Below are positions 7,913 to 22,966 of a stretch of 26,443 nt of DNA, in pieces. Under the pieces are notes generated by a model that saw only the letters and a program-made list of their open reading frames with translations, did not search any database and was not told the origin of the DNA. The stretch is from a virus, in IMG/VR virus record IMGVR_UViG_3300022200_001144, positions 1 through 26,443 of that record, one strand, 5' to 3'. Position 1 is the stretch's first letter; every line of letters starts with the position of its first letter. The position numbers and the translations under genes are program-made.

Positions 7913-10124
7913 TCTTTCTCTTCCAAACATTAACCTGGCTGCACTGGCAGCACTAACTCAGGGAAACACAGGGATGTTTAACATACCCTCATTAGCCCCT
8001 GTAGTGCCTCCTGTAGCCCCTATAGTGCCTCCTGTGGCTCCTGTAGTGCCTCCTGCGCCTGTTGTAGCCCCTGTGGCTACCCCAGTAGCCCCTACAGCCC
8101 CTGTAACGCCTGTAGCGCCTCCTGTGGCCCCTGTGGACCTTTCACAGGTTCTTGGCAACCTTAACTTGGAAGCTATTGCAGGTGCTTCAGGAATGTTTGG
8201 TGTGCCTGGTGCAACAACCAGTACTATTACTAATCCTTACACTCCTGCTTATGTTGTAAACCCAGACATAAACCTTGCAGGAGCAACGGACATCTTTGGT
8301 GGTAGAACCTATGAGTCACCCTTGGCAACCCCTAGTGGTACTCGTGTAGGCTACAGTGAGATGCTTAAACTTAACCAAACACCCGGTTATGTAACCACCA
8401 ACAGACCTGAGCAGATTGGTGACATGTATCTCCCCTTCAGACCTTCAGGGGAAGGTGCTCAAGTAGCTGATGACATCAAGACGTGGTACGAGTATTACAC
8501 TGACAACGAAGACTTTAGAAAGTATTTGTCCGCTGATGAACAGACTGAGCTTGCTTGGTTGGACTACAGAAATGACAGGTACACAGAAGAAGCCTTTACA
8601 AAAAAGATTAACGATATTCGAGATCAATTCAATCTTCCCAAAAGTGTAGGGTTTAAGGACTTTGAAGCACACTTCTCCTATGGCACCAAGAGGAAGAAGT
8701 ATTCAGATAATCCGTATGCAGACCTTCAGCAGTACGGTCCTTCCATTGGTGGCTATTGGAACCCTGAGAATGATCCCAGTGAGTTCCAGCAAGCAATGGC
8801 TAATCCTGTTGTAAATGCAGCACTCACCACTGCTGGTGCTGTAATAGGCAACATGCTTCTTCCTGGTGTTGGTGGACAAGCATTGGGATCAGCCCTTGCC
8901 AGTGGAACCACTACAAAACTATCAGGGGCTGATTGGGAGGACGCACTTAAGGCTGCTGCTATCTCTGGTGGTAGTGCTTATCTTGCTGGTCAGTTGGCAG
9001 GACCACAAGCAGCACCTACTTCAGAATTTAACATCCCAGCAATTGATTTTAATGCACCCTCAGTTCCTTTGGGTGGTATTAATACAGATCTTATAACGTC
9101 TTCTTTGCTTGCTCCTGCTGGGTCTTCAGCTATAGCCGCACCTGTTCTAAACATAGCAGCACCTACCTTCTTTGAAACAGCCCTTGGTCAAGGATTAGGT
9201 AAAGCAGGGCTTGCATTAGCTTCTGGTGGAGACATCAAAGATGCTCTTACAGCAGGTGTCCTTGGTTACACAGGTGCCCCTGGTGGTCTCCTAAGTGGAA
9301 CTCTTGGGGATACTCTTGGTATTGATCTTGGGACTAGCACCCTTGCTAAAGGCATAGAAGGGCTTAACCTAGCTGATGCACTCAAGTTTGGTGTAAGCCT
9401 TCCTGAAGATCAATTGTCTGCTGTAGGAGGACTTCTTGGGGATATGAACCTTGGGACTGTAGGTCAATCAGGTGTTCTTAGTCCTTTGCCGCCTAGTCTT
9501 CAGAACATTGTAGAGAATGTACAAGTATCTGACTTGTTGGCAAACATTGGTGGTCCTAGTACGTCCTCCTTGTTTAACATAGCCTCTGATCTAAACTTAC
9601 CTTCGCTGAACTTGCCTGATTTTAACTTACCTAGTTCAGAATTTAATCTGCCTCCTGTACCTGAATGGCTAAAGAATGCTTATGAAAATGTAGAAGGCGC
9701 TGTACAAAACGTTTATGAGACTGTAGAAAAACCAGTGCAGACTGCTTATGAGGCTGTAGAAAAACCAGTGCAGACTGTTTATGAAAATGTAGAAGGTGCT
9801 GTACAAGATGCTTACCAGAATGCAGAAGGCTTTATTCAAGAGCTGTTAAAGCCTGTCTCTAATCCTTTAGACGAGCTACAAAAACCAGATCTTAATGTAA
9901 ACACTCCTAATTTTGATCTTCAAAAGCTATTTGCAGGGCTTCTTGGTACGGGATTATTCGCTTCAAAACAACAACCACAAATAGCATCTCCAACCAAAGA
10001 ATATACTCCATTCATGGCTACCATAGATTACAACCCAAAAATACAACAACTAACACGGATTGCGGCTTCAGATCCTTTGTCTATTCTTTTGCAAGAGTTT
10101 TACAACTCAAGAGGTGTAGCATGA
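7902..10124 (+). CDS. Large repeat-rich putative virion protein, 740 residues
   Basis: I do not recognise this protein as a whole. Residues about 32-78 are a Pro-Val-Ala tract made of PPVAP units. Residues about 100-270 hold a globular-looking charged region (EQIGDMYLPFRPSGEGA, TWYEYYTDNEDFRKYLS). Around 300-345 lies a Gly/Ala-rich hydrophobic region (AALTTAGAVIGNMLLPGVGG), resembling membrane-active stretches of ejection proteins. Residues about 540-590 carry repeated LNLP/FNLP motifs. Residues 593-647 are five tandem 11-residue repeats. The gene lies between the holin and the head-tail adaptor (ATGA overlap with the adaptor), within the structural block. A tail or ejected internal protein is the best guess; no enzyme motif is visible. 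Confidence 0.65.
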   Translation: MVPNLSLPNINLAALAALTQGNTGMFNIPSLAPVVPPVAPIVPPVAPVVPPAPVVAPVATPVAPTAPVTPVAPPVAPVDLSQVLGNLNLEAIAGASGMFGVPGATTSTITNPYTPAYVVNPDINLAGATDIFGGRTYESPLATPSGTRVGYSEMLKLNQTPGYVTTNRPEQIGDMYLPFRPSGEGAQVADDIKTWYEYYTDNEDFRKYLSADEQTELAWLDYRNDRYTEEAFTKKINDIRDQFNLPKSVGFKDFEAHFSYGTKRKKYSDNPYADLQQYGPSIGGYWNPENDPSEFQQAMANPVVNAALTTAGAVIGNMLLPGVGGQALGSALASGTTTKLSGADWEDALKAAAISGGSAYLAGQLAGPQAAPTSEFNIPAIDFNAPSVPLGGINTDLITSSLLAPAGSSAIAAPVLNIAAPTFFETALGQGLGKAGLALASGGDIKDALTAGVLGYTGAPGGLLSGTLGDTLGIDLGTSTLAKGIEGLNLADALKFGVSLPEDQLSAVGGLLGDMNLGTVGQSGVLSPLPPSLQNIVENVQVSDLLANIGGPSTSSLFNIASDLNLPSLNLPDFNLPSSEFNLPPVPEWLKNAYENVEGAVQNVYETVEKPVQTAYEAVEKPVQTVYENVEGAVQDAYQNAEGFIQELLKPVSNPLDELQKPDLNVNTPNFDLQKLFAGLLGTGLFASKQQPQIASPTKEYTPFMATIDYNPKIQQLTRIAASDPLSILLQEFYNSRGVA
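9678..9842 (+). repeat. Five tandem 33-bp (11-residue) coding repeats
   Basis: The five units read AYENVEGAVQN, VYETVEKPVQT, AYEAVEKPVQT, VYENVEGAVQD and AYQNAEGFIQE. All are exactly 11 residues long. The tyrosine, glutamate and glutamine positions are fixed, as expected of a hendecad amphipathic helix. At DNA level the second and third units are nearly identical (CTGTAGAAAAACCAGTGCAG in both), so recent duplication is likely. Confidence 0.9.
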
Positions 10125-10771
10125 ACTATCTAACACTAGTAAACAATGTCCTTAGAAGGATAAGGGAAGATGAGATCACTGTGATCAATCAGAATGCTTA
10201 TGCTGCTTTGATTGGTGACTTTGTAAATGACGCCAAGGTATCAATAGAGGAGGCTTGGGATTGGACTGCTTTAAGAACCAGCCTATCAATAACCACCTCC
10301 AATGGTGTAAATGAGTACACTCTTACTGGCTTTGGTGATAACTTCAAGTATATTAAACTTCTTGACACATCAAATAACATTACAGTACCTTATCAAGCTA
10401 AAGAGTGGATTGACGTACAAAATAACAGCACAGATACTCCTTTGGAGGGAAAGCCTATTTACTTCAGTTTTAGCCAACTGGACGCCAATGGGGACATGAA
10501 GATAATTCTGTATCCCACTCCTGATGCTGCTTATACATTGAGAATGGATGCTGTAGTTAGGCAAGCACCTCTTGCACTAGGAGAAGATGTTATCAAGGTT
10601 CCTTGGCTTCCTGTGATGCACCTTGCAGTAGCTTTTGCCGCTAGGGAGCGAGGGGAAACTGGAGGAACTAGCACTGTTGAATACTTTGGTATTGCAGATA
10701 AGTATCTAGCTGATGCTATTGCATTGGATGCTTCCTATCATCCTGAAGAAACAATCTTTAGGGTAGTGTAA
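10121..10771 (+). CDS. Head-to-tail adaptor (SU10/P22 gp4-like)
   Basis: The 216-residue protein starts MNYLTLVNNVLRRIREDEIT and contains VNDAKVSIEEAWDWTALR, then a beta-rich region beginning TTSNGVNEYTLTGFGDNF, and later RMDAVVRQAPLALGEDVIKVPWLPVMHLAVAFAARERGE. The order of an N-terminal helix pair with AxxxVExAWDWxxLR, beta strands, and a C-terminal helix with LPVxxLAxAxAARERGE fits the adaptor family found in SU10-like and other podoviruses (P22 gp4-type function). Twelve copies would sit below the portal and join it to the tail. The neighbouring gene (TAATG overlap) looks like the nozzle, as expected. The assignment rests on remembered family pattern. Confidence 0.75.
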   Translation: MNYLTLVNNVLRRIREDEITVINQNAYAALIGDFVNDAKVSIEEAWDWTALRTSLSITTSNGVNEYTLTGFGDNFKYIKLLDTSNNITVPYQAKEWIDVQNNSTDTPLEGKPIYFSFSQLDANGDMKIILYPTPDAAYTLRMDAVVRQAPLALGEDVIKVPWLPVMHLAVAFAARERGETGGTSTVEYFGIADKYLADAIALDASYHPEETIFRVV

Positions 10772-12288
10772 TGTCACAACCACTACAAACAATCAACCTA
10801 ATGGCTCCTGGCTTTAGAGGGCTAAACACAGAAGACTCAGTTCTCTCCCTTGACCCCTCCTTTGCTACCTATGCAGACAATTGTGTCATTGATAAGTACG
10901 GTAGGATCTCTGCAAGGAAGGGCTATTCTGTTGTTACCACTTCAGCAACCCCTTTGGGATCTGACTTTATTCAAGCAATCAAACAGTTTAGGGACTCAGG
11001 CGGTAACACAGCTATTTTCTCAGTGGGTAACAATAAGATTCTAAAGGGAACTACAACCCTCACCGATGCAACCCCAGGCTCCTATACCATCACAGGGAAT
11101 GCTTGGAAAATTGTGGACTTCAATGACCACATTTACTTCTTCCAAAGAGGACATGAGCCTTTGGTGTACAGCAATGCTTTGGGTGCTGTCACCAAGATGT
11201 CCAGTCACCCTTCTTATTCAGCTACAGTTCCCTATGCACATGAAGTCCTTGCTGCCTACGGTCGTCTATGGATAGCAGACACAAGTTCCAATAAGACTAT
11301 CATCTATTGGTCTGACTTGCTTAATGGACAAAAGTGGTCTGGTGGTACCAGTGGATCTATTGATATAACTAAGGTATGGCCTGATGGTTATGATGAGATT
11401 GTAGCACTAGCAGCACACAACAACCTTTTGATTATCTTTGGTAAGCACAGTATTGTAACTTACCAAGGTGCAGAGGCTCCTTCTACTATGGAGCTTTATG
11501 ACACTGTAGCTGGTGTTGGTTGTGTTGCAAGGGACTCAGTTCAATACACAGGGACTGATGTTCTCTTCATGAGCTACTCGGGTCTTAAGTCCTTTGGTAG
11601 GACTATTCAAGAAAAATCATTACCTTTGAATGATCTTTCAAGGAACATTAAAACTGACATTATTTCTACCATTAAAAATGAAACAGGACAAATAACCTCT
11701 TGCTATAGCCAAGAGAATTCTTTTTATCTTGTGTTTTTCCCTTCAAGCAACATTATCTATTGTTTTGATGTCAAAGGAACACTGGAGGATGGCTCTTACA
11801 GAGTAACTCGATGGCCCACCAATAAACTAAAGTGTTTTGAGAGACTGGTGGATGGTACTCTTTATATTGGTACATCCTCTGGTATTGCAACGTACTCTGG
11901 GTACTCAGATGCGGGTGCAACCTACATCATGAGATACTACAGTCCCAATCTCACCTTTGGTGACCCATCAAAACTAAAATTCCTTAAAAAGATTAAACCT
12001 ACTATCATTGGTGGTAATTCAACAAATATTTCTTTCAAGTGGGGATATGGATTCGATAGCTCTTTTAAGTCCTACCAAGTTAATCTTCAAAGCTATGGTG
12101 CATTTCCTTATTACAATGTAGGTCAGTTTAATATAGATGAATACTCAGGCGGTTCTCAATACGTTGTGCCTAATATAAACACAAACGGTAGTGGTACTAA
12201 TATCGTGGTGGGTCTTGAAGCTGTTATAACTGATCAAATTTCACTACAAGAATTTAACATATACACCTTGATTGGTAAAACTTATTAA
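10771..12288 (+). CDS. Putative tail nozzle / stabilisation protein (P22 gp10-like role)
   Basis: This 505-residue beta-rich protein opens with LMAPGFRGLNTEDSVLSLDP, then FATYADNCVIDKYGRISARKGY, a start typical of phage nozzle or tail-tube-like proteins that follow the adaptor gene. Further segments, IYFFQRGHEPLVYSN, AYGRLWIADTSSNKTIIYWSD, LLIIFGKHSIVTYQG and KCFERLVDGTLYIGTSSGI, recur every 40-60 residues like blades of a beta-propeller. In P22 and T7 the corresponding proteins form a hexameric tube closing the tail. The place after the adaptor, with overlapping stop and start, supports this. There is no catalytic motif. The role is by position and fold impression. Confidence 0.7.
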   Translation: MSQPLQTINLMAPGFRGLNTEDSVLSLDPSFATYADNCVIDKYGRISARKGYSVVTTSATPLGSDFIQAIKQFRDSGGNTAIFSVGNNKILKGTTTLTDATPGSYTITGNAWKIVDFNDHIYFFQRGHEPLVYSNALGAVTKMSSHPSYSATVPYAHEVLAAYGRLWIADTSSNKTIIYWSDLLNGQKWSGGTSGSIDITKVWPDGYDEIVALAAHNNLLIIFGKHSIVTYQGAEAPSTMELYDTVAGVGCVARDSVQYTGTDVLFMSYSGLKSFGRTIQEKSLPLNDLSRNIKTDIISTIKNETGQITSCYSQENSFYLVFFPSSNIIYCFDVKGTLEDGSYRVTRWPTNKLKCFERLVDGTLYIGTSSGIATYSGYSDAGATYIMRYYSPNLTFGDPSKLKFLKKIKPTIIGGNSTNISFKWGYGFDSSFKSYQVNLQSYGAFPYYNVGQFNIDEYSGGSQYVVPNINTNGSGTNIVVGLEAVITDQISLQEFNIYTLIGKTY

Positions 12289-12305: not shown

Positions 12306-13256
12306 ATGGCTGGTTTTGATTTTTCTTCTTTGTGGTCTAATCTTTTTGGTGGCATTAGTAATAACTTAGGTGCCATAGGTCAAGGAGCAGGTCTCCTTGG
12401 TGGTGGTGCTTTGTACAATGAAGCCTATCAAAACATTGGTGATGTTGGTCAGAGTGCTTTGGAGAAATCCAATGCTCTTGCTCAACAGGCTCTCAATCAA
12501 ACACAGTTCAGACCCTTCACAGTAACTACAGGTCTTGGCAATCTTCAGGCAACCCCTGAAGGTGGCTACGGTATGACCCTTAGCCCAGATCAACAGGCGC
12601 TTCAGAATCAACTCTTTGGTGGTGCCCAAGGGTTCTATGGACAAGCTACGCAGCCACTACAGCAGCGTACACAGGATGTCTACAACCAACTAAGGGCTAT
12701 ACAAACCCCAGAGGAGCAAAGGCAACAATTGGCTCTTGAGGAGCGCCTGATGGGTCAGGGACGCCTTGGTCTTAATACAGCACAGTACGGTGGTGCTCCT
12801 GAACAGTTTGCACTTGCTAAGGCACAGGAAGAAGCAAAGAACCAAGCAGCCTTTGTTGCGATGGAACAAGCAATGAAGGAGCAAATGCAGGCTGCTGAAC
12901 TTGGTAAGTTGTACCAAACCGGTGGTTATCTCCCCATGAGTTCATTGCTTTCAGCCTACAACCAGGGTCTCCAAGGATCACAGTTGGCTTCTGAGATGCA
13001 ACGGGGAGGAGCAGGTTTGTTTGGTGAAGCTGCTATGGGTGGTATTAATGCACTCTTGGCAAGCCGTCTTGCACAGGGCAACCTTGCTGGTCAGATTGGT
13101 CAGGCACTCCTTGGTGGGACCATGCAGGGCATGTTGAGTCAACAGCAATCCGCAGCAGGTCAAAGTGATCTTGGAGGGGCTTTTGGAGATTTCTTTAAGT
13201 GGCTTGGTGGCTTTGGTCAAGATAAAAGCAAGATGCAAGCAGGGTCTGGGACATAA
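12306..13256 (+). CDS. Putative internal virion/ejection protein, Gly-Gln-Ala-rich, 316 residues
   Basis: The protein has 316 residues, with GGAG about ten bases upstream. The N-terminus is Gly-rich with hydrophobic residues (WSNLFGGISNNLGAIGQGAGLLGGGALYNEA). Long Gln/Ala-rich helices follow (DQQALQNQLF, EEQRQQLALEERLMGQGRLG, AQEEAKNQAAFVAMEQAMK), and then a Gly-rich C-terminal region. This composition and the position behind the tail genes are typical of podovirus ejected core proteins (the T7 gp14 or P22 gp7 type) that enter the host envelope with the DNA. No lytic transglycosylase motif is visible. It is probably co-expressed with the next two genes. Sequence alone cannot fix which core protein it is. 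Confidence 0.65.
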   Translation: MAGFDFSSLWSNLFGGISNNLGAIGQGAGLLGGGALYNEAYQNIGDVGQSALEKSNALAQQALNQTQFRPFTVTTGLGNLQATPEGGYGMTLSPDQQALQNQLFGGAQGFYGQATQPLQQRTQDVYNQLRAIQTPEEQRQQLALEERLMGQGRLGLNTAQYGGAPEQFALAKAQEEAKNQAAFVAMEQAMKEQMQAAELGKLYQTGGYLPMSSLLSAYNQGLQGSQLASEMQRGGAGLFGEAAMGGINALLASRLAQGNLAGQIGQALLGGTMQGMLSQQQSAAGQSDLGGAFGDFFKWLGGFGQDKSKMQAGSGT

Positions 13257-13267
13257 GGAGATAAATA

Positions 13268-14625
13268 ATGGCATCAATCAGTGAATCTTTAATCCAAGGG
13301 CTTCTTCAGCCTGCCTTGGTTTTCAGTCTTTTCAAGAACCCCTTGGGATGCTTCTTGGTGGATCACAGGCAAAGAGAGCTGAAGAGGAGAGACAGAAGAG
13401 TTTGTTTACCCAAGCACTTGGTGCTGAAAACATGAGTGACTTGCAAGGTATCATTGGACAGACTAGAGATTCTGATGAAGCTGCTCGGCTTGTTCAAGCA
13501 GCTCAAGTGGGTGGAACCCTTCGAGCAACACAACAAGCAGCGGACAGAGAAAAAGCCTTTAGGGATATGGTTGCAAGGGAAGGAGCAAGCCTTGGTTCAG
13601 AAGGACAAAGACTAGCAGAAGTGGCTCAAACTGAAGAGTATGATACTTTACGAGAAAATTGGGCCAATCTTTATAAGAACTTTAACTCTAACCCTGGGAT
13701 TCTTAAAACCTATAATGTTCCTACTTCACGATGGGCAGATTTAATTAATCTTCCACCAAAAGATCTTATCTCTCTTTTGAAATCTTCAATGGAGATAGGT
13801 GAAGCAACAATTAAAAATTATATAAATCAAGACGGTCAAATAGTAAGTTTAGCTACTAATAAATTAGGCCAGGTAAGAGACGAAAACGATCAATGGATTC
13901 CGATTGAACAAACAGGATTGACGATTGCGCCTGATAGGCAACAAACGTTTAATATGAACCAATCTATCAATGATCAGATTGGCCCTCAGATTGCTGCTGA
14001 TCTAGATGAAAGTAAGAAAGGAGCCACAGCAGCATCTGGAGCATATACTGGCAGCCTTGAAGGGGAAGCTCTTATTCAAGGTTTACCTGATTCCGCCTTT
14101 GGTCCAAGTGCAGAGATTAAACTACTTGGTAACGAAGCATTAATTGCTCTTGGTTTCAATAATCCTGAAAGAATAAGAACAGCTTCAGATTTGAGAACTT
14201 TCTCGAATAACCGAGCAAGAGCTGCTGTAAAGATTCTAGCTAGTGGTGATCTTGGGAGTGCTCAAAGTCTCACTGATGCTGATAGAGAATTTGCCAAGCA
14301 ACTGGCAGGTGGTGATATAACGTGGAACAAAGAAGCACTCAAGAAGTTGTTGTACCTTGAAAGAAAAATCGCATTTGCCCGTATTGAGGCGCATAACAAT
14401 GACCTAAATACGCGTATCGGTAAGGTTGCTCCAAATGTTGTTCCTTTATATACAGTAAAACCACCAGTACCTACCTTCTATGATCAACCTGGGAATTATG
14501 TAAAGCAAGGAACCGCCGATGAAGATGGTCTAAGGCCAAGGCAGCGTGTGTACAAGGATATCTTTGGTGTAAGTAGGTATGCAGATGGCACCATTGAACC
14601 AAATGACAAACCTTCAAATCGTTAA
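13268..14625 (+). CDS. Putative internal virion/ejection protein with an apparent -1 frameshift near the start
   Basis: A strong ribosome-binding site (AAGGAG, 13255-13260) lies seven bases before the ATG at 13268, which reads MASISESLIQGLLQPALVFS and stops at 13433-13435. The long frame of this gene is different: it is open from 13285, has its first ATG at 13348 with no ribosome-binding site, and runs to 14625 (425 residues from 13348). The two frames join by a -1 shift between 13285 and 13432, giving about 452 residues. The long frame is helical and charged (AKRAEEERQKSLFTQALGAE, LYLERKIAFARIEAHNNDL), as in ejection proteins, and it lies between two similar genes. Whether the shift is real, a mutation or a sequence error cannot be told here. 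Confidence 0.65.
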
Positions 14626-14637
14626 GAGGCTCTAAAA

Positions 14638-16281
14638 ATGGGAGTAAATTGGGATACGCCTAGCCCCGCTGAAGATAAAAAATCAAGCAGTAAAGGCGGT
14701 GTTATTTGGGATGAACCCACCACTCAACAAGTAGCAGAACAACCTCAACCTCAAGGAGCTGTTTCTGAGATTCTTCAAAGGAGAGGTCAGGAGTTCCAAG
14801 AGATTGCTCAAAGAGAACTTGGTGGCAAAGGGAAAGAGCAACAGTTTCCTACTGTAGTTGTGCCAGGACTTGAGGGCGCTCCTGGTCCTGGTCAGGATAT
14901 CCTTTCATTCTTACTTCAAACAGGTGGTAAGACTGGTTTAGGTACTTTATCCGATTTGATTGGTGCCGCAGGATCTGCCATGATCCCTGAGCCAATCAAG
15001 GAAGCTGTGACTTCAGGTCTCGGTGCTCTTGCAAACACAGAAGTTGGGGGCAGTCTTCTTCAGGCTCTCCAAGGAGGTGTTGAAGGATATCAAAAGTGGG
15101 CTGAAGCTAACCCAACTCTGGCAGCTAACTTGGAAGCAACAACCAATATTGCTACTGCTATCCCAAGCACAGGTGTTTCCGCTATTTCTAAAAATCCTGT
15201 TACAAGAGCAATTGAAAACAGTGCTATAGAGAAAAATATAAACTTAGCAAAAGAGATCATTAGACCTAATAGGGATATAAACACAACTATTGCTGAAGAA
15301 AGGCTAAGGGACACAAGGGAAGGTGGTTTTCTTGGTAATCTTTCCATAGAGCTAAACAGACAGGAAGAGCGTGCAGCAGAGCTTCTTGGTGAGGTCTATG
15401 ACAGAGACAAAACATTTGTCACCAATTACAACACTGCTGATACTTTTATTAGAAATAGATCAGAGGAGTTAACCAAGACTATTGATGCTGCAACTACAGC
15501 AAATATTTCTCCTGTAGATGTCACAAAAAAAATAGCAACTGACCTTAATACCTTGTATACAGAAAAACCGACATTAAGAAATGCAACCAGTTTGGTTAAC
15601 AAGATAAAGAATAATTATACGGCCATCCTTGATAAGTATAAGGACTCCAATGGAGAGATTAAACCTTCAGACCTTCTTAAGGTTAGACGGGAGTTTGATA
15701 ATTGGTGGCAAGAAGAGCTACCCTCAGTAGACTTCTCTAGAACTGGAGGTAATTCAAATCAAGCGGAGCTTGTTGTAGGTTTGTTTAGAAGGGCAACCAA
15801 TGATGTTATTGATGCGGCAGTCCCTGATGCAAAAGTAAAGGAAGAACTTTATGACTTATCTAGTATGATCAGGGCTAATCAAAACGTACAGACAAAAGCT
15901 ACTGTTGAAGCATCAAAAGCAATTGAAAGAACGTTTAATAAACTTGGGTTGAGCCAGCCATCAACAGTTGCTTCAAATGCTGCTACTTTGGGTATAGGAG
16001 CAACAGGTATTATTGCCATTACAAAGGGGTTAACGTCTTTGAGTGGGTTAGAGGCTGCTCTTGGTGGCGCAGGTCTTGCTGCGGGTACTCTAGCCTTGGG
16101 TGCTGCATACAAAATACTTAGAAAGCCAGAAACAAGAAGAACCTTTGTTAAACTTGTAGAGGCATTGGACAAGAAAAAATCATTTGCAGCGAGTGCTTCT
16201 TTGATTGAAAGTGTCAATGGTCTTTATACAAGCCTCGGGGAAGAACCTTTGTTCCCAGAACAACAGAAAGAACAGCAATGA
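14638..16281 (+). CDS. Putative internal virion/ejection protein, 547 residues
   Basis: The protein has 547 residues, with GAGG just before the start. The N-terminus carries two copies of a short motif, VNWDTP and VIWDEP, separated by a Ser/Lys linker. Such W-D-x-P motifs are common at the start of phage internal proteins. A Gly/Ala-rich region (TLSDLIGAAGSAMIPEPIKE) is followed by a long charged helical middle. Residues about 445-495 form a Gly/Ala hydrophobic stretch (ATLGIGATGIIAITKGLTSL, ALGGAGLAAGTLALGAAY) able to insert into membranes. The protein ends in a basic-acidic tail. This matches the large ejected proteins encoded last in podovirus structural operons. No peptidoglycan hydrolase motif is visible. 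The stop overlaps the next gene (ATGA). Confidence 0.65.
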   Translation: MGVNWDTPSPAEDKKSSSKGGVIWDEPTTQQVAEQPQPQGAVSEILQRRGQEFQEIAQRELGGKGKEQQFPTVVVPGLEGAPGPGQDILSFLLQTGGKTGLGTLSDLIGAAGSAMIPEPIKEAVTSGLGALANTEVGGSLLQALQGGVEGYQKWAEANPTLAANLEATTNIATAIPSTGVSAISKNPVTRAIENSAIEKNINLAKEIIRPNRDINTTIAEERLRDTREGGFLGNLSIELNRQEERAAELLGEVYDRDKTFVTNYNTADTFIRNRSEELTKTIDAATTANISPVDVTKKIATDLNTLYTEKPTLRNATSLVNKIKNNYTAILDKYKDSNGEIKPSDLLKVRREFDNWWQEELPSVDFSRTGGNSNQAELVVGLFRRATNDVIDAAVPDAKVKEELYDLSSMIRANQNVQTKATVEASKAIERTFNKLGLSQPSTVASNAATLGIGATGIIAITKGLTSLSGLEAALGGAGLAAGTLALGAAYKILRKPETRRTFVKLVEALDKKKSFAASASLIESVNGLYTSLGEEPLFPEQQKEQQ

Positions 16282-16544
16282 TCAAAAAGTCAGACCTCAA
16301 ATGTAACCAACCAAAGAGAACCCCAGGTCACCCTAAGAAGTCTCATGTTGTCAAAGCATGTGAGGGTGGTAAGGAGAAGGTCATTCGATTTGGTGAGCAA
16401 GGAGCAAAGACAGCAGGCAAACCTAAGAAGGGTGAGTCTAAGGAGATGACACAAAAGAGAAAGAGCTTTAAGGCACGACACGGAAAGAACATTGCAAAGG
16501 GTAAAAGTTCAGCAGCCTATTGGGCTGATAAGGTGAAATGGTAA
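16278..16544 (+). CDS. Small basic conserved phage protein, 88 residues
   Basis: The start overlaps the preceding stop (ATGA). The 88-residue product is very basic (about one third Lys or Arg). It has an N-terminal part with two cysteines (DLKCNQPKRTP and VVKACEGGKEKVIRFGEQGA) and a C-terminal SFKARHGKNIAKGKSSAAYWADKVKW. The pattern RFGEQGxKT...RKxFKxRHxKNIxKGKxSAAYWAxKxKW is a familiar unnamed family of podoviruses and cyanophages, usually at the end of the structural or terminase region. A DNA- or RNA-binding role would fit the charge but is not shown. The next two small genes follow with TAATG overlaps. Confidence 0.8.
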   Translation: MIKKSDLKCNQPKRTPGHPKKSHVVKACEGGKEKVIRFGEQGAKTAGKPKKGESKEMTQKRKSFKARHGKNIAKGKSSAAYWADKVKW

Positions 16545-16696
16545 TGCCAGGTCTTTACGAGAACATTCATAAGAAACGTGCTAGGATTGAAGCAGGTAGT
16601 GGTGAGCGAATGAGGAAGAAGGGTTCCAAAGGAGCACCCACGGAAGAAGCCTTTGAGAAGGCAGCTAAGACAAGAAAGAAGAGGAGCAAAAAGTAA
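16544..16696 (+). CDS. Small basic conserved phage protein, 50 residues
   Basis: The ATG overlaps the previous stop (TAATG). The product begins MPGLYENIHKKRARIEAGSG and continues ERMRKKGSKGAPTEEAFEKAA, ending in a run of Lys and Arg. The pattern MPGLYxNIHxKRxRIxxGSGExMRKxGxKGAPT is highly recognisable among marine and freshwater phages and always unnamed. The Lys/Arg content suggests binding to nucleic acid or to an acidic partner. Too short for confident structure; one helix at each end is likely. Conservation across phages makes it a real gene despite its size. Confidence 0.8.
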   Translation: MPGLYENIHKKRARIEAGSGERMRKKGSKGAPTEEAFEKAAKTRKKRSKK

Positions 16697-16797
16697 TGTT
16701 CAAAGTGTGCAAAGGGTGCCCTAGTCCAGCTAAGTGTAAGAAGGCAGGGAAGTGCTTTAAGAAGGCTACTCAGGAGAAGGTGAAAGGTTACAAATAG
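16696..16797 (+). CDS. Tiny Cys-rich basic protein, 33 residues
   Basis: It begins at an ATG that overlaps the previous stop (TAATG). The product is MFKVCKGCPSPAKCKKAGKC followed by FKKATQEKVKGYK. Four cysteines (5, 8, 14, 20) form C-x2-C-x5-C-x5-C, enough for one zinc site or two disulfides, flanked by many lysines. I know no named family, but the stop-start chain with two conserved small genes supports translation. It is the last gene of the plus-strand block; the terminator hairpin starts 42 bases downstream. Confidence 0.6.
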   Translation: MFKVCKGCPSPAKCKKAGKCFKKATQEKVKGYK

Positions 16798-16838
16798 TCG
16801 GCACTTATTGATAACTGACGAAAGAATGTAACACAAAA

Positions 16839-16866
16839 ACAAGGGGGGCACTAAAGCCCCCTTTGT
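16839..16866. terminator. Bidirectional rho-independent terminator between convergent blocks
   Basis: ACAAGGGGGGC (16839-16849) pairs with GCCCCCTTTGT (16856-16866) over 11 base pairs, one of them a G-T wobble, around the loop ACTAAA. Read on the minus strand the hairpin is followed by TTTTG, a good U-tract. Read on the plus strand it is followed by CTATTTTA. It lies between the end of the plus block (16797) and the end of the minus block (16962), so it can stop both transcripts. Confidence 0.85.
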
Positions 16867-16919
16867 CTATTTTAGCCCAAAACACCCCAGTAAAAATGCG
16901 GCTTCCAAGGCACTATGCC

Positions 16920-16951
16920 AGGGGGGTCGCTACTACCCTACAGACCCCCCT
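16920..16951. other. Second G/C-rich hairpin in the convergent intergenic strip
   Basis: AGGGGGGTC (16920-16928) pairs perfectly with GACCCCCCT (16943-16951) over nine base pairs, with a 14-base loop. It starts 11 bases downstream of the reductase stop codon on the minus strand. No T-tract follows on either side, so by itself it is a weak terminator. It may protect the 3' end of the mRNA or assist the neighbouring terminator. The rest of the strip 16798-16961 shows nothing else beyond a small GGCA-CTA-TGCC hairpin at 16909-16919. Confidence 0.65.
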
Positions 16952-16961
16952 TATGTCACTT

Positions 16962-18851
16962 TTACAGTGGATCTTTGATAAACTCTATCTCACAGGCATT
17001 ACCCACACAGGCTAGAGTTTGCGCCCCTTCGGTATTGTCGGACATCTCTTGGATGTTCCAATCAATCTCTTTGGGCATTGTCTCTACACCAACCAAGTAA
17101 ACCTCCTCAGTGATCTCCTCATAGGGAGCCTGTTGGTAGGTGTGCTCTGAGAAGGGCAGGAAGCTAATTCCTGATACTTCATCAAAGTTGTTGTAGATCC
17201 ATTGTCCTACCTCCAGGAACTCACTGTCCTTGTAGTACACCGTCTGTGACACCTTGTGTTCACACCAATAGTTCTGGTACAGACTGTTCAGCTTCAACTG
17301 ATCCATAGCGGACTGCTTAGAAGCCATTACAGAGCCCTCTGGAGCCTTTTGGTAGAAGGTGAATACCTTGGTAGTGGGTGAGGTCACATCAGTCTCCACA
17401 GGCACCCCAGCGGCTTCCAGAGTGGCACACAGGGGGTCTCTGGAGTCTGCTCTTACCCGACGTATGTAATAAGGACTATAACGACCATGAATACCACTGG
17501 AGGAATTAACCAACTGGGATACTGTACCGGAAGGCTTAACGCAAGTAATAGCTGTGCTTTGATTGACTCCCAGCTTGGCAGCCCATTCTTTATTAGTTTC
17601 AATTGCAATCTCCTTCATGGCAGTAAGCCATTTTCCAAGATCCTTAGAATTGGGATTACCCAACAACCAGTGATCCATGATACCAGTCAAGGACACTCCA
17701 AGCAAACACTCTTCCTTGGTGTTAGCAGCCCAGACATTCCGTAGGTAACGGAAGTCAGTCAAGGTGGACTGAAGGGTTCCAAGGATTGTAGCTACACGCA
17801 CCTTGCTCTTTAGATCCTCCAAGGTGTCATTAGGTCTAACCACAACCTCACTCAGGTTACAGAACTGGTTAGGACGTAGAATGATCTCAGAGCAAGGATT
17901 AGTACCAAACTCAAAGTTAGTTTCCCTACGACCATTCCTGGCTGCCTGCTTCTGAGAGGCTACCCTTGAGAAGATCCCTCGTTCACCACTACGGGATTCA
18001 TACAGTGCAGACCACTCAGACAGGAATTGATCGAACTCAGGCTTCTCTGTGTAGCAAGCACTGTTGTTTGACAAACCACGCTGGGGCTGGTCTACCCACC
18101 ACTGACCATGCTTTGCACGCCGTAGGCGATCATCACTCAGGTTACTCAGGCTAATCAGGGCTGACCTACGGACTCCACCAACGACAACAATTTGGGCAAT
18201 CTTGCAGCAGAGGTCATGGCATTCAAGGCTTGTAAGTTTTCTTCCAGCCCCTCCCTTAAAGAGGTCAACTGAGAACCTGAATAGGTTGACAAGAGGTTCT
18301 GGACCGGAAGCCCTACCTCCGAAAGTTCTAAGAGGGGCCCCAGCAGGACGCACTCGACTAATGTCCCACTTGGGTACTTGACCTGAATAGAGCAACGATA
18401 CAAGTTCTCGGAAGGCTTTTGCCCAACCAATCTTTGAATCCGATACGTGAATGATGGTGTCTGTGTCATAGAAGTCTTCTGCTACTTCAGGCAACTTAGC
18501 AATGTATTGTCTTTCAACACTAAACCCCACACCAGTTCCACACATGAGAATGTACATCATCTCATCAAAGGCTCTGGGGCTGTCTACGGCAATGTAACTA
18601 CAATTGAACCCTGCTACGTTGTCTCGATCCAGTGCTTCCCCTGCTGTCATCAGTGCCCGCATGGAGGGCATGACTTGCATATCATAGATGGAAGTCCAAA
18701 GCAAGGTTTCTGTTTCTTCATCAATCAAGCCTTTCTCAACCCAATAGTGGGTGTACCGAGAGACAGTTTCTCCCCAGTGTTCCCTTCGGTTCTCATTAGG
18801 TAGATATCTGGCGTACCTAGATTTATGAATGTACTGTTGGTATAGATCCAT
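16962..18851 (-). CDS. nrdJ: Class II (adenosylcobalamin-dependent) ribonucleoside-triphosphate reductase
   Basis: The enzyme reduces ribonucleotides to deoxyribonucleotides using coenzyme B12, supplying dNTPs for phage replication. I chose the ATG at 18851 (AGGAGG seven bases upstream; it overlaps the preceding TGA), giving 629 residues. Visible motifs are FNCSYIAVDSPRAFDE with Cys84, GTGVGFSVER, NPCSEI with Cys320 and Glu322, FCNLSEV with Cys331, VKPSGTVSQLVNSSSGIHGR, and the C-terminal pair CVGNAC (Cys615 and Cys620). The 11-residue spacing from the active-site Cys to the second redox Cys, and the CX4C tail, match the monomeric Lactobacillus leichmannii enzyme (C408/C419, C731/C736). It is shorter than that enzyme (739). 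It is the last gene of the minus block. Confidence 0.93.
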   Translation of the reverse strand: MDLYQQYIHKSRYARYLPNENRREHWGETVSRYTHYWVEKGLIDEETETLLWTSIYDMQVMPSMRALMTAGEALDRDNVAGFNCSYIAVDSPRAFDEMMYILMCGTGVGFSVERQYIAKLPEVAEDFYDTDTIIHVSDSKIGWAKAFRELVSLLYSGQVPKWDISRVRPAGAPLRTFGGRASGPEPLVNLFRFSVDLFKGGAGRKLTSLECHDLCCKIAQIVVVGGVRRSALISLSNLSDDRLRRAKHGQWWVDQPQRGLSNNSACYTEKPEFDQFLSEWSALYESRSGERGIFSRVASQKQAARNGRRETNFEFGTNPCSEIILRPNQFCNLSEVVVRPNDTLEDLKSKVRVATILGTLQSTLTDFRYLRNVWAANTKEECLLGVSLTGIMDHWLLGNPNSKDLGKWLTAMKEIAIETNKEWAAKLGVNQSTAITCVKPSGTVSQLVNSSSGIHGRYSPYYIRRVRADSRDPLCATLEAAGVPVETDVTSPTTKVFTFYQKAPEGSVMASKQSAMDQLKLNSLYQNYWCEHKVSQTVYYKDSEFLEVGQWIYNNFDEVSGISFLPFSEHTYQQAPYEEITEEVYLVGVETMPKEIDWNIQEMSDNTEGAQTLACVGNACEIEFIKDPL

Positions 18852-19111
18852 CAAAGGTCCTCCTCTTCCTGTGTCCCCATAGCCATTGCAAATTGAATGT
18901 TGAACTTATGTGCCTCAAGGGCACCAAGGACTTCTATTGGGCTAAGTACGGGGTAACAGACAGTGTGTAGTTCCCCTTGATATTCAATGAAGGCTAAAAA
19001 AGAGTCAGGGACTTTATCTTTGATTGAGATTTTATCAAAGATCTCCTGAACGGTCTTTTCAACTTCTTCCTCTTTGTCCTTCTTACCAAAGCCACCTTGA
19101 ATGACGTGCAT
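18851..19111 (-). CDS. Unknown protein, 86 residues, in the nucleotide-metabolism operon
   Basis: The ATG overlaps the MazG-like stop (TAATG), and its own stop overlaps the reductase start. The sequence has a Gly-rich start (MHVIQGGFGKKDKEEE), a charged helix, a beta-like middle (PDSFLAFIEYQGELHTVCYP) and a helical LGALEAHKFNIQFAMAMG, ending in acidic residues. No family is recognised. Tight coupling between a nucleotide pyrophosphohydrolase and the ribonucleotide reductase suggests a job linked to nucleotide metabolism, but there is no motif to confirm it. Confidence 0.65.
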   Translation of the reverse strand: MHVIQGGFGKKDKEEEVEKTVQEIFDKISIKDKVPDSFLAFIEYQGELHTVCYPVLSPIEVLGALEAHKFNIQFAMAMGTQEEEDL

Positions 19112-19443
19112 TAGCGATCACCTCTACCTTGAATAGTTCCATCTTCCAGGCGCTTCTTAAGTTTCTCTACATTAGCTTTAGCTACTTTCTCAAAGTCAAT
19201 TTGCATATCATCCAAGATCATGGCAAGGTTCCAAAGGACATCACCTGCTTCACTAATGACCTTTGCACGGTCTACACTGACGGCATCACCCCTCAGAATG
19301 GGCTTGATGAACAGGTCAGCTAGCTCCGCTGCTTCCACCATGAGAGAACAAACGGGATACATTCTGTCTTCATAAAGCGCAGTACGAGAAGCAAGACGTT
19401 GATACAGATTAAAGTCAATGTACTTTTCCTCTTTATTTTCCAT
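19111..19443 (-). CDS. MazG-like nucleotide pyrophosphohydrolase
   Basis: This 110-residue all-helical protein has the MazG metal-binding pattern: LMVEAAELADLF (Glu37, Glu40), ISEAGDVLWNLAMI (Glu65, Asp68) and the later ANVEKLKKRLEDGTIQGRGDR. The ExxE...ExxD arrangement binds Mg2+, and the C-terminal NxxKLKKR with GRGDR is typical of phage MazG-like proteins. Family members hydrolyse NTPs or dNTPs to monophosphates and pyrophosphate. In phages they are thought to adjust nucleotide pools or the host stringent response. It overlaps the DUF3310 gene by 11 bases. The exact substrate is unknown. Confidence 0.85.
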   Translation of the reverse strand: MENKEEKYIDFNLYQRLASRTALYEDRMYPVCSLMVEAAELADLFIKPILRGDAVSVDRAKVISEAGDVLWNLAMILDDMQIDFEKVAKANVEKLKKRLEDGTIQGRGDR

Positions 19444-19687
19444 GCACTATGTACTCCTCAATGAGTTTTTCCAAGTACCATTTAGCCTTCTTAAGATCCT
19501 CTAGACCATTCTTGTACTTGTATCTGTGTATATATTTTAACACAGAACCCTCATAATAACTGCATATATTTGCACCCAATTGCTGCCTGATGTACTCAAT
19601 GGCTTCAATTGATCCTTGGTTATAGTGCTTTGGCTTTGCAACTGCATCCCATTCAGCAGGTGTAGCATTATCAATACTGTTTTTCAT
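19433..19687 (-). CDS. DUF3310 protein, T7 gp1.7 nucleotide kinase-like
   Basis: I took the ATG at 19687 as the start because GGGAG lies close upstream. The frame extends further upstream to 19768, but that part overlaps the endonuclease gene and looks unnatural. The 84-residue product contains KPKHYNQGSIEAIEYIRQQL, GANICSYYEGSVLKYIHRYK and GLEDLKKAKWYLEKLIEE. This is the classic DUF3310 pattern (P.HY..G.IE.Id.I...l......g.glKY..RykkKnG.eDL.KA.wYL..L). The domain occurs in T7 gp1.7, which phosphorylates dTMP and dGMP. It is shorter than gp1.7, so kinase activity is not assured. The neighbouring MazG-like and reductase genes support a nucleotide role. Confidence 0.85.
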   Translation of the reverse strand: MKNSIDNATPAEWDAVAKPKHYNQGSIEAIEYIRQQLGANICSYYEGSVLKYIHRYKYKNGLEDLKKAKWYLEKLIEEYIVHGK

Positions 19688-19703
19688 AAAGAATGTCTCC
19701 CAA

Positions 19704-20144
19704 TCACAGTCTTGCCGACTTCTTTCTCTTCTTCTTTGAAGCATTGTCAACATAAGCAAGGAACTCATCTAGTTGTGATAGTGTAAAGTATCTAAACCCT
19801 TCCTTCTCACACCACTTACCCATAGTAATGTCAGAACCTTTACGTACTTTCTTCCTTGGATCAGAGAGAATAAATATCAATTCATTGTACTTATTGATAC
19901 TGTCCCTAATGGCTTTGTACTTTTGAGTGTCACCAGTCCTAAAGAACCCCTTACACTCCACAATGATCCCACTGTCCGAGTGTACAAAGTCAGGTTTGTA
20001 TTCCCTATGAACCACATAGGGCAACATGAATGGTTCAAACTTGAATTCCCATCCAGTCACCCCTTGTGCAAAGTCCCTCTCAAGACCACTCCTGTACCCG
20101 CTACTGGATCTCGGCATAGGGAATCTCTGGAACCTTGGGTTCAT
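19704..20144 (-). CDS. Endonuclease I (T7 gp3-like Holliday-junction resolvase)
   Basis: The product has 146 residues against 149 in T7 endonuclease I. The motif GYRSGLERDFA carries Glu22. YKPDF carries Asp52 and GIIVECKGFF carries Glu63 and Lys65, corresponding to T7 Glu20, Asp55, Glu65 and Lys67. Further family matches are TQKYKAIRDS, ELIFILSDPRKKVRKGS and TMGKWCEKEGFRY. The enzyme cleaves branched DNA and helps break down host DNA in T7. It overlaps the end of the exonuclease gene. An alternative ATG at 20117 would drop nine residues. The C-terminus is Lys-rich, as in T7, and probably contacts DNA. Confidence 0.9.
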   Translation of the reverse strand: MNPRFQRFPMPRSSSGYRSGLERDFAQGVTGWEFKFEPFMLPYVVHREYKPDFVHSDSGIIVECKGFFRTGDTQKYKAIRDSINKYNELIFILSDPRKKVRKGSDITMGKWCEKEGFRYFTLSQLDEFLAYVDNASKKKRKKSARL

Positions 20145-20970
20145 TAACTACCTTGGTGAAGAACTTTGGACCTGTGGAGTACACAAACCCTCGTAGACCC
20201 TGCCAGCAGACCTTCTTAAAGTGACAGTAGGAGCAGGTAGCCGTCAGTACCATGTTGCCACTCTTGCCGTCTGGCACAGGCTCTGCACAGGGCTTCTCAG
20301 GTGATTCATTCTTGTTCACCACCTGCCACACATGCTTCACTCGATCCTCGATGGAGTAGCTAATCTTCTCGTGTACTGGAGCCTGGGTGTCCTCTTCATC
20401 GTACATGAGATAAGTCAGGTGTCCATTCTGCTTGTCCATTGCAAGCCAGCCGTACTTTGTCTCACCCTCAGAGTGAGCATAAGCCTTGATCTGTCCCACA
20501 TAGGCAAATGGATCATCATAAGCCAGAGATCCATCCTTGAACTTCTTAAAGCCATAGGTACTAGTGGACTTGATGTCAGTCACAATCCCATCAATCTTAC
20601 AGTCCATAGACCCTTTGACTTCGGCTACCTCACAGGGGTGCTGCTCATGTGTCACCTTATGTCCTGACATCTTAACCAAGAACAGCAGCATCTCCTCGAT
20701 GATGTGACCATAGAGGAACTTGATGAGGTTCTCTGGGCGGTACTTCTGTCGTGCTTTACTGTGATAGTGATTCCATAAATAACGGTCGTCCCTTCCGATA
20801 TTTGAGAGCCTCAGCTTGCGTGAATCAAAACTCTTGCTAAGGAACTCCTTACGCATGAGATCCTTGACTGCCTCACCAAAGGCATCAATCTCTTTCTCAA
20901 CATCAACCCCCTCTGGTGCCCTCTTGGAGAGAACAACAGAGTAAATATCATCTACTAATGTATGAATCAT
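20101..20970 (-). CDS. PD-(D/E)XK exonuclease with C-terminal Fe-S type cysteines (Cas4/RecB-like)
   Basis: The product has 289 residues. The nuclease core shows YGHIIEEML (Glu92), VKGSMDCKIDG (Asp127), VTDIKST (Asp132, Lys134) and the QxxxY motif QIKAY (Gln160), the order seen in RecB/AddB/Cas4-type nucleases. The C-terminal part has Cys228 and then C-SY-C-HFKKV-C (Cys246, 249, 255). The CxxC-x5-C spacing is that of the iron-sulfur staple of AddB and Cas4, with Cys228 the likely fourth ligand. A 5'-3' or 3'-5' exonuclease used in replication, recombination or host DNA degradation is likely, probably replacing T7 gp6. It overlaps the resolvase-like gene (ATGA) and the endonuclease I gene. Confidence 0.8.
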   Translation of the reverse strand: MIHTLVDDIYSVVLSKRAPEGVDVEKEIDAFGEAVKDLMRKEFLSKSFDSRKLRLSNIGRDDRYLWNHYHSKARQKYRPENLIKFLYGHIIEEMLLFLVKMSGHKVTHEQHPCEVAEVKGSMDCKIDGIVTDIKSTSTYGFKKFKDGSLAYDDPFAYVGQIKAYAHSEGETKYGWLAMDKQNGHLTYLMYDEEDTQAPVHEKISYSIEDRVKHVWQVVNKNESPEKPCAEPVPDGKSGNMVLTATCSYCHFKKVCWQGLRGFVYSTGPKFFTKVVNEPKVPEIPYAEIQ

Positions 20971-21281
20971 AGAATTGCCCCTACGTTGCTACGATGCTTG
21001 ACAAAGCGCATCTTTCGTGTTCTAGGGTTAAATACTAGTATCTGAACTCCAAGCATCTCCTGAGCAAAGGTTCTCTTGAAACCCCATTTCAATTCACTCT
21101 TCTTGCTCTTGATGTCAAATAGCCAAACCTTGCCATTCTTGATTGCCACAATGTCCACTGGACCTGTTGATCCAGAGTTTTTATAAACCTCAAAGCCATT
21201 GTCCCAAAGCCAGGTTACTGCGTAAAACTCAGCTAGATCACCTATTCTGCTTGTGTTTTTGTTCAATGTGTTTCGCTCCAA
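20967..21281 (-). CDS. Small PD-(D/E)XK nuclease, Holliday-junction-resolvase-like
   Basis: This 104-residue protein has a compact restriction-endonuclease-like core: RIGDLAEFYAVTWLWDNGFE (Glu18), NSGSTGPVDIVAI (Asp43) and VWLFDIKSKK (Asp56, Lys58). The third motif is D-x-K instead of the more usual E-x-K. The order (helix with Glu, GxxD, strand, then DxK) is that of small Hjc-like resolvases and other phage PD-(D/E)XK nucleases. It may act on branched or damaged DNA. It overlaps the polymerase by 19 bases and the exonuclease by four. It would be a second junction enzyme beside endonuclease I, so another specificity is possible. Confidence 0.75.
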   Translation of the reverse strand: MERNTLNKNTSRIGDLAEFYAVTWLWDNGFEVYKNSGSTGPVDIVAIKNGKVWLFDIKSKKSELKWGFKRTFAQEMLGVQILVFNPRTRKMRFVKHRSNVGAIL

Positions 21282-22966
21282 TTGTTTCCAATGTGGTACT
21301 CACCAGCCAAAGGACAGTTGAGCTTGAAGTGAAGCCCTGCTGCTTGGATGGATTGTACTGCCAAGATCCCAAAGGATCTGGCTTGCTCTTCCTTGACTTC
21401 ACTTTGTATTTCATCATGGATGTTACCTACAAACTTAAAGTCAAGACCCCACATATTAGCATACTCATGGAGAATACACAGTGCTTTTTTCATAACAATT
21501 GCGCCTGCACTTTGGAGTAGTGTATTTAGTGCAGCATGTTCTGATCGGATATAAACCTTCCTCCCATCAACACCAAATAAAAAACCTCTGTGGCTTTTAA
21601 TGGACACTTGTTCCTTAAGGGCTGCCAAAGCAGGCACGTTACTTAGAAATTTCTCCTTCAGCCTCTTTCCCTCTCGGGAATCTTTACCCACAATGGACCC
21701 TATTTTGGCGTCTCCTGCCCCGTACAGGAAAGCGTAGATAAAGGTTTTTGCTTGGTTCCTGGTCTCCAGTCCTGCTGCTAGTTGGTTCTTTGTGTGTACA
21801 TCACCCGTCAGGATCTCCTTGGTGTACTCAGGATCATTCATGTAGTGTGCAAGCATTCTCAGCTCAAGCCCACTGGCGTCTACACCCACCAGCTTGTACC
21901 CCTTTGGTACCACCCAGCAGGCTCTACAGTCAGTCCCATAGGGCTTCCCATTGGCTGTCACCTGCGCCATGTTGGGGTTGCTGTGTGTCATCCTTCCTGT
22001 AACTGCACCATTGGTCCTGACTTCCCCGTGGACTCTACTGTCCTTGTCAGCCAGCTCCACCCAAGACTCCACCATAGCAATTCTTTTCTGTACCATCAGG
22101 TACTCTGCTATGAGTTGAGCTTGGGGAATAGAGACACCTTCTAGGACAGTCTCATCCACCTTGGGTTGCCCTGTCTCAGTGAACTCCTTGGGCTTCCATC
22201 CAAACCATTGAAGGTATCTTCCAATCTGCTGCCGCGAGCCTAGATTGAATGGTGACCAGCTTATCCTGCTGAATGGTCCTGCCACCTGTTTCCATTGGTC
22301 TTCACCAAAGAACTTAAGACCCACTGAGGATAACTCCCCATTGAGTTTGTACTTTGGTGTTACTTCTTTTTCAAAGACAGGTAGAGGTTTGAATACTGAG
22401 AGAACAGTATCCTCCAGCTCCATCAGTTTCTGCTTTAGTTCACCAAGGAAGGTGTAGCACTTCTTCTGGTCCAAGAGCCACCCATTGCGGGTTTGCTCTG
22501 TGATGATCCATGCTACTTGGTGCTCTAGCTGAATGGACTGTTCAGAGAACCCTTGTAGTTCCTTGAGCAGGCACTCATGCAGCCTCTTGGTCACCTGTAC
22601 GTCCCTCAGACAATACTCGATCATCTCAGGTGTACATTGTGACCAATCACTATGGTCACCCTTGGGGAACCCTAGAGCCTCACCATAGGAGGCTAGGCTG
22701 TGTCCTAGCTCCCTGCTGGGGTTTGCAAGCCTTCCAAGGACCAGGGTATCTACTACCCTAGCTCTATCAAAGGAAACACCCCACAGACGTTCCAGCACGG
22801 GCACATCGAAGCCTATGCCATTGTGGAACACCCATGTAGATTCCTTGTGTTGGTTGAAGAAGGTTACAAAGTCATCACGCCTCGTGAATGTCTGATTGTT
22901 GACACAGACCACCCATATCTTGTCCGGGGTCAGACTGTTCGCTTCTATGTCCGTGTACAACAGCAT
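21263..22966 (-). CDS. DNA polymerase, family A, T7 gp5-like with 3'-5' exonuclease
   Basis: The product has 567 residues; AGAGG lies nine bases before the ATG. The exonuclease shows YTDIEAN (Asp6, Glu8), HNGIGFDVP (Asp54) and YCLRD (Tyr118, Asp122), so proofreading appears intact. The polymerase shows GVDASGLELR (motif A, Asp363), RNQAKTFIYAFLYG (motif B; Arg403, Lys407, Tyr411, Tyr415) and NIHDE (motif C; His517, Asp518). Close likeness to T7 gp5 extends over TRNQAKTFIYAFLYGAGDAK and RSEHAALNTLLQSAGA. Tyr411 corresponds to T7 Tyr526 (E. coli Phe762). T7 gp5 has 704 residues; the difference is partly in the thumb insertion that binds thioredoxin, which is shorter here. It replicates the phage genome. 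Confidence 0.95.
   Translation of the reverse strand: MLLYTDIEANSLTPDKIWVVCVNNQTFTRRDDFVTFFNQHKESTWVFHNGIGFDVPVLERLWGVSFDRARVVDTLVLGRLANPSRELGHSLASYGEALGFPKGDHSDWSQCTPEMIEYCLRDVQVTKRLHECLLKELQGFSEQSIQLEHQVAWIITEQTRNGWLLDQKKCYTFLGELKQKLMELEDTVLSVFKPLPVFEKEVTPKYKLNGELSSVGLKFFGEDQWKQVAGPFSRISWSPFNLGSRQQIGRYLQWFGWKPKEFTETGQPKVDETVLEGVSIPQAQLIAEYLMVQKRIAMVESWVELADKDSRVHGEVRTNGAVTGRMTHSNPNMAQVTANGKPYGTDCRACWVVPKGYKLVGVDASGLELRMLAHYMNDPEYTKEILTGDVHTKNQLAAGLETRNQAKTFIYAFLYGAGDAKIGSIVGKDSREGKRLKEKFLSNVPALAALKEQVSIKSHRGFLFGVDGRKVYIRSEHAALNTLLQSAGAIVMKKALCILHEYANMWGLDFKFVGNIHDEIQSEVKEEQARSFGILAVQSIQAAGLHFKLNCPLAGEYHIGNNWSETH

Follow-up and report, generated by a model that had tools for sequence, protein, structure and literature searches.

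Mosaicism has been described for phage ejection proteins (PMC8954989), and our literature search turned up no publication on ejection genes that use programmed frameshifting. The window analysed here, a stretch of 26,443 nucleotides from the virus record IMGVR_UViG_3300022200_001144, carries a gene (13268-14625) which the initial annotation had described as ejection-type and as starting in one frame and continuing in another. Comparison with related contigs indicates that this gene is almost certainly one normal frame broken by a one-base deletion, arising either from an error or from a real inactivating mutation, with no recoding involved.

Signals, frames and neighbours of the broken gene

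Re-reading of the window upheld the coordinates behind the two-frame description. The only strong ribosome-binding site, AAGGAG, ends seven bases 5' of the ATG at 13268, whose frame stops at the TGA 13433-13435. The long frame opens at 13285, right after the TGA 13282-13284, and encodes 425 amino acids from its first ATG, at 13348, where no start signal was seen. The T runs at 13320-13323 and 13329-13332 and the C run at 13339-13342, proposed as candidate shift sites, are likewise present. The features of the locus are as follows:

12306-13256, plus strand: intact upstream gene, part of the same late module; its counterpart is intact in the related contigs L002 and L004
13255-13260, plus strand: Shine-Dalgarno sequence AAGGAG of the broken gene, read directly; overlaps the upstream gene's stop codon
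13268-13435, plus strand: 5' piece of the gene, comprising the true start ATG and an out-of-frame tail; the start is homologous in all ten relatives
13285-14625, plus strand: 3' piece, lying in the -1 frame; true frame from about 13318, stop at 14623-14625
13316-13317, plus strand: place where one base is missing by comparison with a 99.8%-identical contig, located by alignment; the exact base is not assignable within the T run
14638-16281, plus strand: downstream gene, intact; its counterpart is intact in L002

Within the 5' piece, MASISESLIQGLLQPA represents genuine residues and those beyond it are not genuine.

An SU10-type adaptor gene (10121-10771) lies upstream in the gene order, followed by a gene (10771-12288) with a mixture of amidase and virion structural protein matches: its top PHROG match bears the label amidase, and the next ones the labels virion structural protein and internal virion protein. 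Other neighbours match a major head protein and tail fibres, and the other strand carries a DNA polymerase and a primase/helicase. Judged by this gene order, the intact protein probably belongs to the virion of a tailed phage, as part of the tail/internal-core module. The term ejection-type agrees with the placement of the gene in a late virion module beside adaptor and tail genes, but the intact protein gave no PHROG or Pfam family match at E ≤ 0.01 and showed no homology in sequence to any known family of ejection proteins, leaving the term as a plausible guess from position and composition. Residues 295-415 weakly match (28% identity) a hypothetical protein of Bradyrhizobium phage ppBjS10J-1 (OP596615.1), which resembles this part of the window protein only. 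A DNA-level search of annotated phages returned weak matches only, all of them outside the broken gene.

Two further genes of the window were observed. On the minus strand, 16962-18854 holds a gene for a Class II-like (B12-dependent) ribonucleotide reductase, with weak scores in Pfam; its DNA is 92-95% identical to that of relatives which share only 72-81% in their virion genes. The protein encoded at 436-1866 contains repeated LLANDLQSxSSVSTPxLGQTH-like units and may be a virion or tail-associated protein with repeats.

A near-identical contig and the one-base difference

Scanning IMG/VR with the 425-residue product retrieved the contig IMGVR_UViG_3300007542_001164 (L001), with 100% protein identity over that part. 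This contig aligns to window positions 12612-21347 with 99.83% identity over 8,737 bp, and the alignment holds a single indel, at position 13318, where the window is one base shorter in a short T run that has three T in the intact allele. All 14 substitutions listed for the pair (covering a 7,012-bp part of the overlap) are within 16481-19309, so that the indel is the only difference across 12612-16480. These substitutions are all transitions, and their confinement to 16481-19309 suggests recent recombination or a mixed population.

The corresponding gene of the near-identical contig (657-2012) is the same gene, its DNA identical throughout except that it is one base longer, which gives a single uninterrupted frame of 452 codons from the homologous ATG. 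The initial annotation had named one more base restoring the frame as a sign of error rather than biology, and at the contig level such a base is found here. None of its three candidate shift sites fits, since the frame difference falls at the short T run 13316-13317. A whole-collection scan for either allele yielded no further copy beyond IMGVR_UViG_3300007542_001164; the near-identical intact allele thus comes from a single contig.

Wider relatives and the origin of the disruption

A second scan, built on an alignment of residues 1-90, returned ten loci, IMGVR_UViG_3300007542_001164 among them. It used two separate short peptides, one from each side of the deletion site, so a broken allele was also detectable. 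Three of the loci lie on contigs of the earlier scan (L001, L002 and L004), making ten independent contigs in all; no relatives were found in the bacterial and archaeal genome collection. N-terminal identity is 45-100% across the ten loci, and 45-76% for the nine besides the nearest contig.

Every one of the ten loci has one continuous frame starting at the homologous ATG, and the two-frame arrangement occurs in none of them. The distance from this ATG to the methionine equivalent to 13348 is 81 nt in all ten (codon 28) vs 80 nt in the window, and the pattern MASISES.IQGL..P....Q...EPLGM is conserved in frame across the deletion site. Six of the ten loci have the same 20 bases 5' of the ATG, GGGACATAAGGAGATAAATA. 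With all ten loci continuous, the uninterrupted frame is ancestral, and only the window departs from it. The earlier proposal that the two pieces form one protein is thereby borne out, and, of the causes put forward with it, a sequencing error or a damaged gene agrees with the loss of one base, while programmed frameshifting does not agree with the continuous relatives.

In its normal state the gene is a single 452-residue frame translated from ATG 13268, and the base missing near the 16th-17th codon breaks that frame. Judged by the alignments, the window has lost a base relative to the near-identical contig and the frame is intact in all relatives. Because the 99.8%-identical contig and all the other relatives are uninterrupted, the window contains either a sequencing or assembly slip or a broken copy. 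We consider an error in the window's contig somewhat more likely than a real mutation. It is favoured by an isolated indel among thousands of identical bases, disrupting a gene that is intact in every relative, and by the open genes on either side of it. The T run is, however, only three long in the intact allele, and loss from three T would be atypical of homopolymer errors if the data are short reads; 8.7 kb with no other indel also suggests generally good sequence.

A real one-base deletion, either in a defective phage genome or in a minor variant captured in the consensus, is a more tentative explanation. The isolated indel against the near-identical contig fits it as it fits an error, frameshift mutants occur in phage populations, and a contig consensus may derive from few molecules. 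Against this, every related contig found has the gene intact, so that one would expect a null allele to be purged and hence rare. If the deletion is real, the expected product is a truncated peptide of 55 residues, and a longer product would need initiation at Met28 (13348).

Programmed -1 ribosomal frameshifting joining both frames is excluded for practical purposes. The strong Shine-Dalgarno sequence on a short frame, together with a long open -1 frame, suggests it when the window is read alone, but ten relatives, the nearest among them, encode the same protein with no shift, and no canonical X XXY YYZ slippery heptamer is present in any phase of window 13268-13435. At the deletion site the DNA of most relatives differs while its length is unchanged, which means that a slippery sequence is not conserved. 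In L002 and L004 the frame matching the window's out-of-frame tail is closed early by a TGA; the tail is therefore not a conserved product, and dual coding of it is ruled out.

We give practically no credence to a true start at ATG 13348 with the 13268 frame as a separate small gene: both frames are mechanically open in the window, but ATG 13348 has no start signal and corresponds to an internal residue, Met28, in all ten relatives, which begin in frame at the equivalent of ATG 13268 and not, as the initial annotation had envisaged for homologs arguing against a joined gene, at the methionine of 13348. It is also exceedingly improbable that the short-T-run deletion represents a recurring on/off allele in the phage population, a slippage-based variation of an ejection-type virion protein.

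Reading the locus as one gene with a one-base loss removes a false candidate for programmed frameshifting, and the gene is better annotated as one frame from 13268 with a one-base disruption than as a 425-residue protein from 13348.

A shared gene start on unrelated bodies

The related loci share their gene start more widely than the rest of the gene. The first 43-60 residues show 60-97% identity between loci, whereas from residue 100 onwards the bodies form at least four groups (L007/L008/L010; L009/L012; L011/L013/L015; L016) with no significant similarity between groups. At the DNA level the shared part is a block reaching from about -30 to +120 relative to the start codon, 97-100% identical between loci (for example L008 vs L012 or L013), and on one or both sides of it identity is at or near chance level. 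In the window the block is located as follows:

13238-13390: block of about 150 bp that covers the ribosome-binding site and some 40 codons, nearly identical between several of the related contigs (compared around the start codon in L007-L016)

From these comparisons of sequence, the block may be a recombination joint, or it may encode a conserved N-terminal or virion-targeting tag placed on exchanged bodies. A conserved start on unrelated bodies illustrates how the virion genes of uncultivated phages evolve as mosaics, and is consistent with ordinary phage mosaicism as in ejection proteins (PMC8954989). Compared with the internal virion or ejection proteins of podoviruses (PMC8954989), the window gene is alike in its late-module position downstream of an adaptor-like gene and in its mosaic, modular sequence; its product differs from them in having no PHROG or Pfam match, and the likeness between the two is one of position and mosaicism.
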